A DNA stretch of 38,445 bases. It comes from a bacterium (GTDB lineage: Bacteria > Gemmatimonadota > Gemmatimonadetes > Gemmatimonadales > Gemmatimonadaceae). The position numbers were made by a program, and so were the translations under genes. Below are positions 18,334 through 23,318 of this stretch, piece after piece. How positions within the stretch are numbered: the stretch's first letter is position 1; each line of letters starts with the position of its first letter. The DNA lies in assembly GCA_021813725.1 (NCBI GenBank), contig JAKAJN010000017.1:1-38445 (forward strand), written 5' to 3'. The notes beneath the pieces were generated by a model that had not been told where the DNA came from, searched no databases, and saw nothing but the letters and a program-made list of their open reading frames with translations.

Positions 18334-19314
18334 CTACGGCGCGTCCCGCAGACCGCTGAGCGCCTCGGCGACCGCTCCCCGCACCAGCGCAACCTTGTAG
18401 CCGTTGCCAGAGAGTGGCGTCGCCCCGGTGCTCGCCGCGGCCGCGGCCCGCTCGATCACCGCATCGCTCAGCTCGTGGCCCAGCAGTTCCTTCTCCGCAG
18501 CGCTCGAGCGCCACGGCATCGGCGCCACTCCCGACAGTACGATGCGTGCGTGCTCCACCGTCTTCCCGCGTCGGGCAAGCGAGACGGCCGCTCCCGTGAG
18601 CGCGAAGTCCCATGCGCCACGCGCGCGCAGCTTGCGGTACGTACTCACGCCACCGCTCGGCGCGGGGGGAAGCGCGACCTCCACGACGAGTTCGTCGGCG
18701 TCCACCACTGTCTCGCGCGTGTAGTCCTTGCTGGGCGGAACGAAGAACGCGTTGAGCGGCACGGTGCGTGACCCGCGTGCGCCAACCAGCCGCACGGTTG
18801 CGTCGAGTGCGGTCAGGGCCGGCGCCGTGTCCGACGGATGCACCATCACGCAGACGTCGCCGCCAAAGATGGCGTGAAGCTGGTTCTCGCCCTCCTTGGC
18901 GAAGCACGTGTCGCCGCCCTTGCGCGCGCACGGGAAGTCGCCGCGATAGTACCAGCAGCGCGGACGTTGGCAGAGATTGCCACCGATGGTGCCCTGGTTG
19001 CGAAGCTGCGGACTGGCCGCGGCGAGCGCCGCCTCGGCCAGCACCTGGTAACGGCGCAGTACCAGCGGATGTGTCGCCAGTTCGGAGAGCGTCGTGAGCG
19101 CGCCGATGCGCAGGCCGCCGTCCGGTGATTCGGTGACGCCGCGCAGTTCCGCAAGGCCGGCGATGCTCACCAGCCGCGTCGCGGAAAAGACGCGGTCGCG
19201 CAGGCAACCCAGCAGGTCGGTGCCGCCGGCGTGTACCCGGGCCCCGGGCGTTGCGAGTTCGCGAATGGCCTGGCCCAGATTCTCAGGCCTGACGTACGTG
19301 AAGGTCGGCAGCAT
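18334..19314 (-). CDS. Molybdenum hydroxylase FAD-binding subunit with an extra FeS loop (PaoB/YagS-like)
   Basis: The 326-residue protein starts at ATG 19314 with GGAGG seven bases upstream. FAD-binding parts of the xanthine-dehydrogenase medium subunit are present: RVHAGGTDLLGCLRD (first pyrophosphate loop) and RNQGTIGGNLCQ (second loop). Directly after it four cysteines (C115, C120, C129, C137) lie in CQRPRCWYYRGDFPC...C, as in PaoB and 4-hydroxybenzoyl-CoA reductase beta subunits, which bind an additional [4Fe-4S] cluster. The C-terminal half (TYRKLRARGAWDFALTGAAV) is the CO-dehydrogenase flavoprotein C domain. It passes electrons from the molybdenum subunit via FeS centres to the acceptor. 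It is the third gene of the operon, 3 bp after the large subunit gene. Confidence 0.93.
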   Translation of the reverse strand: MLPTFTYVRPENLGQAIRELATPGARVHAGGTDLLGCLRDRVFSATRLVSIAGLAELRGVTESPDGGLRIGALTTLSELATHPLVLRRYQVLAEAALAAASPQLRNQGTIGGNLCQRPRCWYYRGDFPCARKGGDTCFAKEGENQLHAIFGGDVCVMVHPSDTAPALTALDATVRLVGARGSRTVPLNAFFVPPSKDYTRETVVDADELVVEVALPPAPSGGVSTYRKLRARGAWDFALTGAAVSLARRGKTVEHARIVLSGVAPMPWRSSAAEKELLGHELSDAVIERAAAAASTGATPLSGNGYKVALVRGAVAEALSGLRDAP

Positions 19315-19317
19315 GGC

Positions 19318-21624
19318 TCACCTCCCTCCTGCGCGCGAGAGCGCATTCACAATGGATGCCGGCGTGATCGGTGCGTCGTAGATGCGCCGCCCGATCGCAT
19401 CGCACACGGCATTGGCAATCGCGGCCGCGGCCGGAATCGTTGCAGGTTCGCCAAGGCCCTTGGCGCCCACGGAGTTGCATTCCTGGTCCTGCAGATCCAC
19501 GGCGACACACTGGAAGTCGGTCGGAAAGTCCATCGCCGTCGGAATCTTGTAGTCGTGCCACGACCCGTTGGCCAGCTTGCCCGTCTGCCGGTCGAGCACG
19601 CGCTGCTCGGTGAGCCCGAACCCGATGCCCATCGTCACGCCGCCGAGCACCTGGTTTTCGAACGTGAGCGCGTTCATCACGCGCCCGGAGTCCTGGGCCG
19701 CCACATAGCGGATCACCCGCACCGCGCCGGTCCGCGTGTTGACCTCGACCTCGGCGAAGTGTGCGGCGAAGGGCAGGGCCACCTTGCCCGGCGGATGCGG
19801 AGCGCGGCGGCCGACGCCGACCAACTGCTGCCGCTGGGCGAGACTGCGCAGCGAGGAGAAGGGAACCATCCGGTCCTCGCCGGCGATGACGATGCTGCCA
19901 TCCTTCACGCTCAGCGTCGCGACGTCCTTCTTCAGCTCGTCGGCGGCGAGCGCGAGGAGTTGCGCCTTCACGTCAGCGGCGGCCGCGCGCACGGCCGGCG
20001 TGTTCACCAGAATCGTCTGGCTTCCGCCGGAACTGGGCGCGTACTGCGTCGTCGCCGTGTCGGCATACTCCACGCGCACCCGTTCCACCTTGACGCTCAG
20101 CTCTTCAGCCGCCACCTGCGCGAAGACCGTCTTGGTGCCGGTGCCAATGTCTGCCGCGCCCGAGTTGATGTTGACGGAGCCGTCGGCGTAGAGCTTGATG
20201 ATCGCCGTCGCGCTGGGCGCGCCGGGTGAGCCCCACATTCCGGCGGCGAGCCCGACGCCGCGCTTGACGTGCCCCGCAGACGCCGCCGCCTTGGACGCCT
20301 CCGCCCAGCCGAACTTCTCCGCGCCGCGGCGCAGGCATTCGGCCAGTCCGGTGGACGTGTACGGCTGTCCGTTTCGCAGCTGGCTGACGACCGGGATGTT
20401 CTTGAGCCGCAGGGCGACCGGATCCAGGCGCAGCTTGGTCGCCAGCTCATCGAGCACCTGCTCGAGGGCCCACGCCGCCTGCGGGTACCCCGGCGCGCGG
20501 AAGGCGCGCGCCTGCCCGGCGTTGATCAGCACGGAGCGCTCCACCACGCGCACGTTGGGGCACGTGTAGAGGTCGAGCATCAGGTAGCTCGACGTGGCGC
20601 CGGTGGGGTACGCGCCCATTGCGCCGAGCAGCGTCGCATCGAGCGCGACGAGCGTGCCGTCCTTGCGGGCGCCGGCCTTGAGCGTGATGGTGTTCGCCGG
20701 CCGGTTGCCGACGCAACGCATCATCTCCTCGCGCGTCAGCACGCACTTCACCGCACGTCCGGTGCGCCGGGCAAGCACGGCGGCGATCACCGTGTACTTG
20801 CCGAGTTCGAGCTTGCTGCCGAAGCCGCCACCCATGTAGTGACTCGCCACGCGCACCGACGACAGTGGCAGCTTGAATGCCAGCGCGAGGGAGTCGCGCA
20901 CCGCGTAGACGCCCTGCGTGCTGTCCCACACCTCGAGCTGGCCGCTGTCCCACTGGGCCACCGACCCGTGCACTTCCAGCGGCACGTGCATCTCGCACGG
21001 CGTGTGGAAGGTGTGCTCGACCACCGCATCGGCGGTCGCGAACGCCGCCTGCACATCCCCCCGCTGGCTCGTGCGCGACGGCGACGGCTGATTGCCGGCC
21101 GGATGCAGCTTCGGCGCCTCGGGCAGCGTGGCCGCCTCGTAGTCCACCACCGTCGGGAGCGTCTCGTATTCCACGATCACCGCCCGTGCCGCGTCGGCCG
21201 CCTGCAGCGGCGTTTCAGCGGCGACGGCGGCCACCTCCTCGCCCTCATATCGGCAGTGCGGGTCGAGAAGCTGGCTGAGCGCGCCCTGGCTGGTCAGCAC
21301 CCACGGAATCTTCGCCTCCGGCGAATCCGTGGTGATGATCGCGTGCACGCCCGGCATCGCCGCAGCCGCCGTCGTGTCAATGCGCCTGACGGTCGCGTGG
21401 GCGTGCGGCGAGCGCACGATCGCGCAGTGCAGCATGCCGGGCAGTGCCAGGTCGCGCACGTACACCGCCGTGCCGCCGACGCGATCGTGGCCGTCAATGC
21501 GGGGCACCGGCGCGCCAACGACCGTCGTCTTGCCCCACGGGGGAAGGTCCAGCACCTCTGGTGCGACGCCGCTCTCGCGCTCCGCGTCGAGCGATTCCGA
21601 CGCGTAGATGTTGGGCTCCCTCAT
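19318..21624 (-). CDS. Molybdenum hydroxylase large subunit (molybdopterin-binding, PaoC/YagR/XDH-like)
   Basis: The 768-residue protein starts at ATG 21624, which overlaps the stop of the FeS subunit gene and has GGAGGTGCCCA before it; the open frame upstream to 22338 is an artefact. It has the a/b hammerhead domain (RIDGHDRVGGTAVYVRDLALPGMLH), the substrate-channel region (EVHGSVAQWDSGQLEVWDSTQG), the cofactor motif MGGGFGSKLE, RAFRAPGYPQA, and a C-terminal GAKGLGEPATIP. The Glu in the last motif fits the catalytic Glu of the family. Such enzymes hydroxylate aldehydes or N-heterocycles using water. The subunit composition is of the PaoABC periplasmic aldehyde oxidoreductase kind, but the actual substrate cannot be read from sequence. 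No XdhC/MocA-type maturation gene is in the window. Confidence 0.94.
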   Translation of the reverse strand: MREPNIYASESLDAERESGVAPEVLDLPPWGKTTVVGAPVPRIDGHDRVGGTAVYVRDLALPGMLHCAIVRSPHAHATVRRIDTTAAAAMPGVHAIITTDSPEAKIPWVLTSQGALSQLLDPHCRYEGEEVAAVAAETPLQAADAARAVIVEYETLPTVVDYEAATLPEAPKLHPAGNQPSPSRTSQRGDVQAAFATADAVVEHTFHTPCEMHVPLEVHGSVAQWDSGQLEVWDSTQGVYAVRDSLALAFKLPLSSVRVASHYMGGGFGSKLELGKYTVIAAVLARRTGRAVKCVLTREEMMRCVGNRPANTITLKAGARKDGTLVALDATLLGAMGAYPTGATSSYLMLDLYTCPNVRVVERSVLINAGQARAFRAPGYPQAAWALEQVLDELATKLRLDPVALRLKNIPVVSQLRNGQPYTSTGLAECLRRGAEKFGWAEASKAAASAGHVKRGVGLAAGMWGSPGAPSATAIIKLYADGSVNINSGAADIGTGTKTVFAQVAAEELSVKVERVRVEYADTATTQYAPSSGGSQTILVNTPAVRAAAADVKAQLLALAADELKKDVATLSVKDGSIVIAGEDRMVPFSSLRSLAQRQQLVGVGRRAPHPPGKVALPFAAHFAEVEVNTRTGAVRVIRYVAAQDSGRVMNALTFENQVLGGVTMGIGFGLTEQRVLDRQTGKLANGSWHDYKIPTAMDFPTDFQCVAVDLQDQECNSVGAKGLGEPATIPAAAAIANAVCDAIGRRIYDAPITPASIVNALSRAGGR

Positions 21625-22253
21625 TGGGCACCTCCACTCTTTCGGGCATCGGCGGCCCGCCGCACGGCCGCGAAGATGTGTCCGTACGCCCCACAGCGAC
21701 ACAGGTTGCCGCTCATCCCGAGCCGTATCTCGTCGGGCGTTGGGCTCGCGATGCGTCGTAGCAGCCCTTCGGCGGCCATCACCTGACCCGGCGTGCAGAA
21801 GCCGCACTGGTAGCCGTCCTCGTGGACGAAGGCCTGTTGCAGGAGTGAGAGTTCCTCGCCGTTCGCCAGCCCTTCGATGGTCGTGATGGCGTGACCCTGC
21901 GCCTCTACCGCGAGCGTCATGCACGAGTAGCGCGTGGAGCCGTCCAGCAACACGGTGCACGCGCCACACTCGCCGCGTTCGCACCCCGGCTTGGCGCCAA
22001 TGAGGCCGAGGCGTTCGCGAAGCACCGAGATCAGCGTCTCGCGCGGCTCCACGCCCAGCCGGTACGTGCGGCCGTTGACGGTGAGCACGATGCGCGTGGG
22101 CTCCGAGTCGTCGCGCCGCGCCGGTTCGGCCGCGGCGGGAATGGCTGCGCCGGCCACTGCCACCGCCGCCGCGCTTGAAGAGACCGTGGTCAGGAACCCA
22201 CGACGGCTGACGCGCTGGACGTCGCCCGGCTCCGGCTTGCCTCGATCGCTCAT
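21621..22253 (-). CDS. Molybdenum hydroxylase [2Fe-2S] subunit with TAT signal (PaoA/YagT-like)
   Basis: The 210-residue protein starts at ATG 22253, preceded by GGAGGTGTG. A twin-arginine signal (VSRRGFLTTVSSSAAAVAVAG) indicates folded export to the periplasm and should carry the partner subunits with it, as in E. coli PaoABC. A plant-type ferredoxin domain follows (KPGCERGECGACTVLLDG...C). A helical second-cluster domain (YQCGFCTPGQVM...GNLCRCGAYGHI) gives two [2Fe-2S] centres. It is the first gene of a three-gene operon (FeS, Mo, FAD). A promoter is visible 57-85 bp upstream. Confidence 0.94.
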   Translation of the reverse strand: MSDRGKPEPGDVQRVSRRGFLTTVSSSAAAVAVAGAAIPAAAEPARRDDSEPTRIVLTVNGRTYRLGVEPRETLISVLRERLGLIGAKPGCERGECGACTVLLDGSTRYSCMTLAVEAQGHAITTIEGLANGEELSLLQQAFVHEDGYQCGFCTPGQVMAAEGLLRRIASPTPDEIRLGMSGNLCRCGAYGHIFAAVRRAADARKSGGAQ

Positions 22254-22309
22254 CACACCTCCACGCGCGCGTGCGCGGGACGAGAGTCGCATCGGGGAGC
22301 CGTCTCCCT

Positions 22310-22398: not shown

Positions 22399-23190
22399 CT
22401 AGCTCGCGGTCGGCCGCACCGCCGTGAACAGCACCGCCTTCACGCCGTAGGCCTCGGCCGAGTTCTGGGTCGATGCCTTGCGAAAGCGAAAATGCGGGAC
22501 GACGACGGAGCGCACGCGGACAAAGCCGGATTCCTCCAGCAACCGGAACAGCTCTCCCTCCAGGAGAGCGCCTCCAATTCAACTGGCCCAGAGCTTCGGG
22601 TCATTGACGATGGACTGCGAGAGCTGCTTGGCACTGACGATGTCGGTGAAGGCGAACCGTCCGCCCGGCTTCAGGATGCGAAAGACCTCCTGCACCACCT
22701 TCCGCTTCCGGAACGACAGATTGACTACGCCGTTCGAGATGACGGCGTCAGCCGTGCCGTCGGCGATCGGAATCTCTTCCATCCGCCCTTCGCGGCACTC
22801 CATGTGCGTCCCGGCAATTGCTGCGTGCGCCTGCGCTTTGCGGCACATCGTCGGATTCAGGTCCACGCCGATCACCCGCCCGGTGGGTCCAACGCTCCAC
22901 GAGGCGATGATGGAATCCAGCCCGGCGCCGCTCCCGAGGTCGACCACTGTCTCGCCAGGCTGAAGCTGGCTGCGGAGGTGCGGGTTGCCCACGCCGGCGA
23001 ACGAGGCCACCGCGCCGGCGGGCGCCCGATCGAGCAAGTTCTTTTCGTAGCCGAACAGTTCGGCCGCTTCGCGCCCGTGGTAGAAGTGATATTCGCCCTG
23101 CGGCTTCTCGGCGACGTCCTCATACATCCGGATGATCTCATCCTTCAGGACGGCCTCCAGCGTCTCCTGCGCGTCGACCGCGTCCGTCAC
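22399..23190 (-). CDS. Probable selenoprotein: ArsM-like SAM methyltransferase with in-frame UGA (Sec204)
   Basis: The reading frame starts at GTG 23190 with GGAGG five bases upstream and runs 203 residues to TGA at 22581-22579. The same frame then continues for 59 more codons to TAG at 22401-22399. SAM motif I is VVDLGSGAG (82-90); GVIGVD-like motif II and RILKPGGRFAFTDIV follow. The residues after the UGA (IGGALLEGELFRLLEESGF) are the direct continuation of the arsenite-methyltransferase family. There the sequence normally reads (A/S/G)-C-(I/V)-x-G-A-L, and the Cys is an arsenic-binding, catalytic residue. UGA thus replaces exactly that Cys. A 7-bp hairpin follows the UGA at SECIS distance. 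ArsM's other catalytic Cys (in GCGNP) is Val here (GVGNP); C116 and C132 remain. The role is probably methylation of a metalloid or thiol/selenol substrate. A simple nonsense mutation is the alternative. Confidence 0.82.
22551..22569 (-). promoter_or_regulatory. Candidate bacterial SECIS element after UGA204
   Basis: On the transcript GCUCUCC-UGGAG-GGAGAGC forms a perfect 7-bp stem with a 5-base loop. The loop starts 16 bases after the UGA and has G as its second base. These values satisfy the general bacterial SECIS rules (UGA-to-loop distance roughly 16-37 bases, G among the first two loop bases). The element is itself coding (ALLEGEL), as usual for bacterial SECIS. Confidence 0.72.
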
Positions 23191-23318
23191 GGGTCCTCCG
23201 AGTCTTGGGGGGGAGCGTCTGATTCTCGTCGACCGGACGCACGGCGTCGTGCGACACGCTTCCAAGAAGAGGAGACGGACGGCGTTGCGCCAGCCAATCG
23301 GTGCGATGACCGTCGCCG

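Follow-up and report, generated by a model that had tools for sequence, protein, structure and literature searches.

The question raised by this locus is whether a UGA codon inside a methyltransferase gene of the window (the whole 38,445-nucleotide stretch that was analysed) is decoded as selenocysteine and, if so, what chemistry such a residue would serve. Translation of the minus strand bears out the frame proposed in the first-pass annotation, which runs from GTG at 23190 to TAG at 22401-22399 with the TGA at 22581-22579 as its sole internal stop, and the read-through protein contains the flanking sequence that had been noted there, KLWAS-UGA-IGGALLEGELF. The features on which the analysis relies are the following:

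22399..23190, minus strand: predicted selenoprotein methyltransferase gene, GTG start at 23190 and TAG stop at 22401-22399, 263 residues with Sec204
23195..23199, minus strand: Shine-Dalgarno sequence GGAGG ahead of the GTG start, from the sequence
22921..22941, minus strand: SAM-binding motif I DLGSGAG, residues 84-90, from the sequence and from Methyltransf_31, _11 and _25 domain matches
22729..22731, minus strand: Gly154 codon, at the site of the conserved ArsM As(III) ligand Cys174, from alignment
22579..22581, minus strand: predicted Sec-UGA codon 204, aligned with CmArsM Cys224, equivalent to human AS3MT Cys206, in the PDB ArsM chains
22551..22569, minus strand: predicted bSECIS hairpin GCUCUCC-UGGAG-GGAGAGC, from folding, synonymous constraint, compensatory change and fit to the bSECIS model

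Gene finders end this gene at residue 203, so that the predicted selenoprotein of dozens of Gemmatimonadota species will usually be annotated in a truncated or split form.

Decoding of the UGA codon

Forty-two relatives of the window gene were found by scanning GTDB genomes; nearly all come from Gemmatimonadota and most are 60-83% identical to it, with a similarity that spans the UGA, and every one of the 42 carries TGA at codon 204. Sister groups of this family (family A) emerged when 395 Gemmatimonadota genomes were searched with a profile, namely family A' (two loci, TGA), family B (ten loci, TGA) and family C (five loci, TGC), while haloarchaeal relatives have Cys at residue 204. The alternation of Cys and Sec at this residue across genomes, which the first-pass annotation had proposed as a check, is therefore seen (Sec in A, A' and B; Cys in C and haloarchaea). 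Some close relatives carry the labels of other phyla (L027, Bipolaricaulota bin446; L039, KSB1; L016 and L022, Eisenbacteria), which may reflect horizontal transfer or mis-binned contigs; relatives of the window protein were not found on viral contigs, and phages gave merely short partial methyltransferase matches to it.

The part of the frame that lies past the UGA behaves as coding sequence. The pN/pS ratio amounts to 0.11-0.32 past the UGA as compared with 0.15-0.27 before it and, as judged from these sequences, purifying selection past the codon, also beyond the hairpin, is much the same as before it. The AF2 model of the read-through protein is of high confidence (pLDDT 91.5, pTM 0.90), and in it the sheet is completed by strands from the residues past Sec204. 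These results bear on the reading in which the UGA acts as a genuine stop, or the gene is decayed or mis-sequenced, so that a 203-residue product or nothing would be made. UGA does end several genes neighbouring the methyltransferase in the window normally, and the absence of selD and selC from the genome (see below) could be taken in the same sense, but the identical TGA shared by dozens of independently assembled genomes, the selection past it and the loss of the last strands of the fold that truncation would entail make this reading highly improbable.

The hairpin that had been proposed at 22569-22551 was found as described, beginning 9 nt past the UGA with a 7-bp stem and a 5-nt loop, UGGAG, which starts 16 nt past the UGA and carries G as its second base. 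Folding of the sequence after the UGA gives a 21-nt stem-loop of -13.3 kcal/mol (z = -2.8), with energies ranging from -11.9 to -13.3 across folds. The published bSECIS model specifies a loop of 3-9 nt with G within the first two positions, a stem of 4-16 bp, a distance of 16-37 nt from the UGA and an MFE <= -7.5 (PMC13188914), and the window hairpin agrees with it in every respect. Equally strict hairpins follow 17 of the 906 TGA triplets in the window, so that a single sequence is not decisive and the case rests on comparison; it is the conservation of the hairpin across the related sequences that is decisive for reading it as a putative SECIS. Indeed, among 46 distinct sequences no six-codon window of the gene is under stronger synonymous constraint than codons +4 to +9 past the UGA, from which the hairpin is formed, with GCT, CTC, CTG, GGA and GAG nearly fixed there, whereas codons +1 to +3 vary freely. 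In family B the hairpin reads GCUCUGC-UGGAA-GCAGAGC, a compensatory change relative to family A in which the pair at columns 18/26 passes from C-G to G-C. Of the cells, 98.1% are paired, as compared with 45-65% after a shift of the partner by 1-3 columns. The hairpin is weaker in family A' and, among the sequences compared, absent from the Cys-form family C and from ArsM.

The search of the source genome for sel genes, which had also been proposed, gave a divided result. This genome is a MAG of 3.0 Mb in 237 contigs, 94% complete, and carries selA and selB; selD was not detected in it, nor was selC/tRNA-Sec with the Rfam model, with ARAGORN near the best matches and selB, or by BLAST with a same-genus tRNA-Sec, searches which returned tRNA-Ser and other tRNAs only. 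As a genome of the same genus (G071) holds the UGA-containing gene together with selB, selD and a tRNA-Sec with a UCA anticodon, the absence of selD and selC is most simply explained by sequence missing from the window's MAG. On a broader scale, selB and/or selD occur in 50/50 UGA-form genomes versus 1/5 Cys-form genomes (Fisher p = 1.5e-5, a value which overstates independence because the species are related). Among the 40 hand-read A/A' genomes with UGA, selD is present in 37, selB in 37 and at least one of them in all 40, and selD is present in the ten family B genomes (10/10); four of the five Cys-form genomes (G222, G227, G147 and G326) have neither gene. In the same way, tRNA-Sec is found in 30 of 34 Sec-form genomes versus one of five Cys-form genomes. 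The SelD gene of Gemmatimonadota is itself mostly UGA-containing and occurs without UGA in some genomes (loci L071-L076 and a selD survey).

Reading of the UGA as some other residue, be it Trp by a change of code or the product of near-cognate read-through, is less probable still: read-through alone would likewise keep the downstream frame open, but UGA terminates several neighbouring genes, the relatives substitute Cys and not Trp, the SECIS covaries, and the presence of the gene tracks the Sec machinery. Taken together, the TGA conserved in 42/42 relatives, the covarying hairpin, the selection past the UGA, the Cys/Sec alternation and the co-occurrence with the Sec machinery support Sec204, and the gene product is almost certainly a selenoprotein in which UGA codon 204 is read as Sec. 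The proposal of a Sec-containing metalloid or thiol methyltransferase in the first-pass annotation fits this evidence. Such Cys/Sec pairs, with and without a SECIS within one phylum, form a clean natural set in which to test what Sec contributes to methyl transfer.

Relation to ArsM and to catalogued selenoproteins

The window protein is a class I SAM methyltransferase with a Rossmann fold and motif I, as established from Pfam, the AF2 model and Foldseek. The top PDB matches of the model in Foldseek are all ArsM/AS3MT, and this group (NF008823/PRK11873; CmArsM 4FR0, CrArsM 5EVJ, human AS3MT 8XT7) gives the best PDB matches by both sequence and fold. The two share the class I SAM fold, and Sec204 occupies the place of CmArsM Cys224, so that the earlier placement of the UGA exactly at the arsenic-binding Cys of the ArsM family holds. 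The differences are nevertheless substantial. The window protein has Gly154 where ArsM has Cys174, lacks the N-terminal Cys of ArsM (CmArsM Cys44/Cys72) and has a shorter C-terminus than the solved ArsM chains. The other core Cys of ArsM had been reported as Val in this protein, which is incorrect: it is Gly154 that aligns with CmArsM Cys174, and the Val in question lies opposite CmArsM Cys176, a residue outside the conserved arsenic ligands. Wherever the site is covered, sequences of families A, A', B and C and of haloarchaea have Gly at residue 154; each of the five Gemmatimonadota ArsM compared has Cys there. Cysteines of the window protein are found at 116 and 132 only, with none in residues 1-115, from which it follows that the N-terminal Cys of ArsM is missing as well. 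Cys116 and Cys132 are nearly invariant within family A and are not retained throughout A', B and C.

Cys72, Cys174 and Cys224 are conserved among ArsM orthologues (PMC5552862), and the ligands of AS3MT are given as three Cys for arsenite, two for methylarsenite and one for dimethylarsenite (PMC3877260). Of these As(III) ligands the window protein keeps the Cys224 site alone, as Sec, and with one chalcogen ligand left three-thiol binding of arsenite is unlikely. The protein could alternatively be considered as an ordinary ArsM with Sec in place of one Cys, methylating As(III) to mono- and dimethylarsenicals. The structural and sequence matches just described would agree with this, and the ArsM superfamily is known to include proteins with Sec at this position (PMC13188914). 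However, the window protein scores 198.4 bits on the PRK11873 ArsM model, below the cut-off of 263, whereas Gemmatimonadota ArsM score 342-350 bits; its clade splits from ArsM with 100/100 support in the tree; and the same genome holds a separate canonical ArsM (contig C232, 349 bits). Together with the loss of the ligands, these results indicate that the protein should not be named ArsM. We consider an ordinary ArsM unlikely, and arsenite itself an equally doubtful substrate; the enzyme probably acts by selenium chemistry on a substrate other than plain arsenite. With two of three arsenic ligands lost, the annotation 'ArsM-like' is to be kept distinct from arsenite methylation, a distinction which matters where surveys of the arsenic cycle rely on counts of arsM genes.

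UxxG selenoproteins of the ArsM superfamily have been catalogued (Fomenko et al. 2007; Haft & Tolstoy 2025; as listed in PMC13188914). That list includes the selenoprotein arsenite methyltransferase WP_011987699.1 (Fomenko et al. 2007) and the families NF041537 ArsM_AhpD_UU, NF041536 ArsM_DUF2284_UU and NF047649 MTase_UXPK_star (Haft & Tolstoy 2025). The window protein shares with them a Sec followed by xxG in an ArsM-like domain, here UIGG. The three families are two-domain proteins with 2-3 Sec, the second Sec-bearing domain being AhpD, DUF2284 or UXPK-star, whereas the window protein is a single domain with a single Sec and ends at residue 263 with no such domain; WP_011987699.1, unlike it, is scored as ArsM. 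Its scores against the cut-offs of NF041537, NF041536 and NF047649 are 198 vs 510, 174 vs 575 and 176 vs 460 bits. The alignments of the three models extend over the N-terminal helix of the window clade too; with true ArsM, those of NF041536 and NF041537 leave this helix out, a difference which suggests that the catalogued fusions may be relatives of the clade. No NCBIfam model that matches the stand-alone, single-Sec, Gly154 clade reaches its cut-off, and we found no description of the clade in the searchable literature. What is new here is this stand-alone, single-Sec, one-ligand clade, set apart from the catalogued fusions by domains, Sec count and model scores. Cys-form haloarchaeal and Chelatococcus proteins, annotated as 'methyltransferase domain-containing protein', belong to this Gly clade as full-length homologues, with 289-321 bits against its profile, and differ in having Cys, not Sec, at residue 204.

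Gene neighbourhood and proposed mechanism

Neighbour clustering and Pfam tallies of 111 neighbour proteins show no universal neighbour in family A. No ars genes are prominent in the tallies, which is a further point against an ordinary ArsM. The neighbours that do recur act mostly on thiols or sulfur: a rhodanese/metallo-beta-lactamase-fold gene lies 20-45 nt from the gene in L019, L021, L042, L043 and L127, followed in the first four by an MFS transporter; DUF4395 is a neighbour in L003 and L039; DsrE lies downstream in L113 and L115; and OsmC comes after the gene in L037 and L123 and precedes the Cys-form gene in 6/7 haloarchaeal loci. CMD/AhpD genes adjoin L178 and are found adjacent to or close by L172 and L177. 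The OsmC, AhpD/CMD, rhodanese/metallo-hydrolase and DsrE neighbours of some relatives suggest methylation of a thiol, of sulfur or of a monovalent metalloid. The OsmC-like protein at L037:5878-6420 has a weak match to NCBIfam NF041052, 'OsmC-related (seleno)protein' (64 vs 95 bits), and appears to retain a single cysteine.

Directly downstream in the window (18334-22292, minus strand) lies an operon of three genes for a molybdenum hydroxylase of the xanthine-dehydrogenase/PaoABC type, with a 2Fe-2S subunit bearing a twin-arginine-like leader, a MoCoBD subunit and a FAD subunit. It might be supposed that the methyltransferase partners this xanthine-dehydrogenase/aldehyde-oxidase-type molybdoenzyme, for instance in handling the cofactor or selenium, in view of the common strand and the gap of about 110 nt, and of a similar 2Fe-2S/Mo-hydroxylase pair which follows the gene in L017 and, in Chelatococcus L175, adjoins the Cys form in convergent orientation. 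The operon is, however, not found around the gene in other Gemmatimonadota loci, including that of the same-genus genome G071 (L159); such a partnership is very unlikely, and the operon was set aside because it is not conserved.

The best overall explanation, to which we assign a probability of roughly 0.75, is an ArsM-superfamily SAM methyltransferase with Sec204 as lone ligand, a thiophilic single-ligand substrate and a thiol-redox reset. SelB and tRNA-Sec would decode UGA codon 204 as Sec under the direction of the downstream hairpin, and Sec204 would be the substrate-binding or nucleophilic residue at the ArsM Cys224 site. With Gly154 in place of Cys174 and no Cys in residues 1-115, the other As(III) ligands are missing, so that a single selenolate would hold the substrate and carry it beside SAM for methylation. 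Candidate substrates are a low-molecular thiol, hydrosulfide, selenide, a persulfide or a monovalent organometalloid (dimethylarsenite, for example), and the Sec would probably be reset by an OsmC-, AhpD- or rhodanese-type thiol-redox partner of the kind encoded next to the gene in several lineages. That the substrate belongs to the class of sulfur or selenium species, small thiols or monovalent metalloids is about an even bet; as no biochemistry of this clade was found in the searchable literature, substrate and partner are inferred. Against the lone-selenolate explanation count the window's MAG, with no detectable selD or selC, and the variation of the neighbours between genomes. More tentatively, we propose an undescribed one-ligand Cys/Sec methyltransferase clade across Gemmatimonadota and haloarchaea which would methylate sulfur or selenium species, not arsenite, with an OsmC/AhpD/rhodanese-type redox partner. 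If true, this would represent a selenium-dependent chalcogen methyltransferase using a lone selenolate (or thiolate).

At four loci the selenoprotein gene is followed after 11-34 nt by the gene of a second SAM methyltransferase, distinct from the first (L030:1980-2591, L033:707-1327, L038:561-1172 and L008:2354-2971), with which it is probably co-transcribed; the L030 copy of this second gene, which was scanned, has no NCBIfam match. The haloarchaeal and Chelatococcus relatives have a regular redox-protein or sigma-factor neighbour, unlike most Gemmatimonadota copies. An ECF sigma factor lies upstream of the Cys-form gene in most family C loci (L122-L125) and in Chelatococcus L175, and a zf-HC2 anti-sigma-like gene lies upstream in all six of the loci L121-L125 and L175, suggesting stress-regulated expression of these Cys-form relatives.
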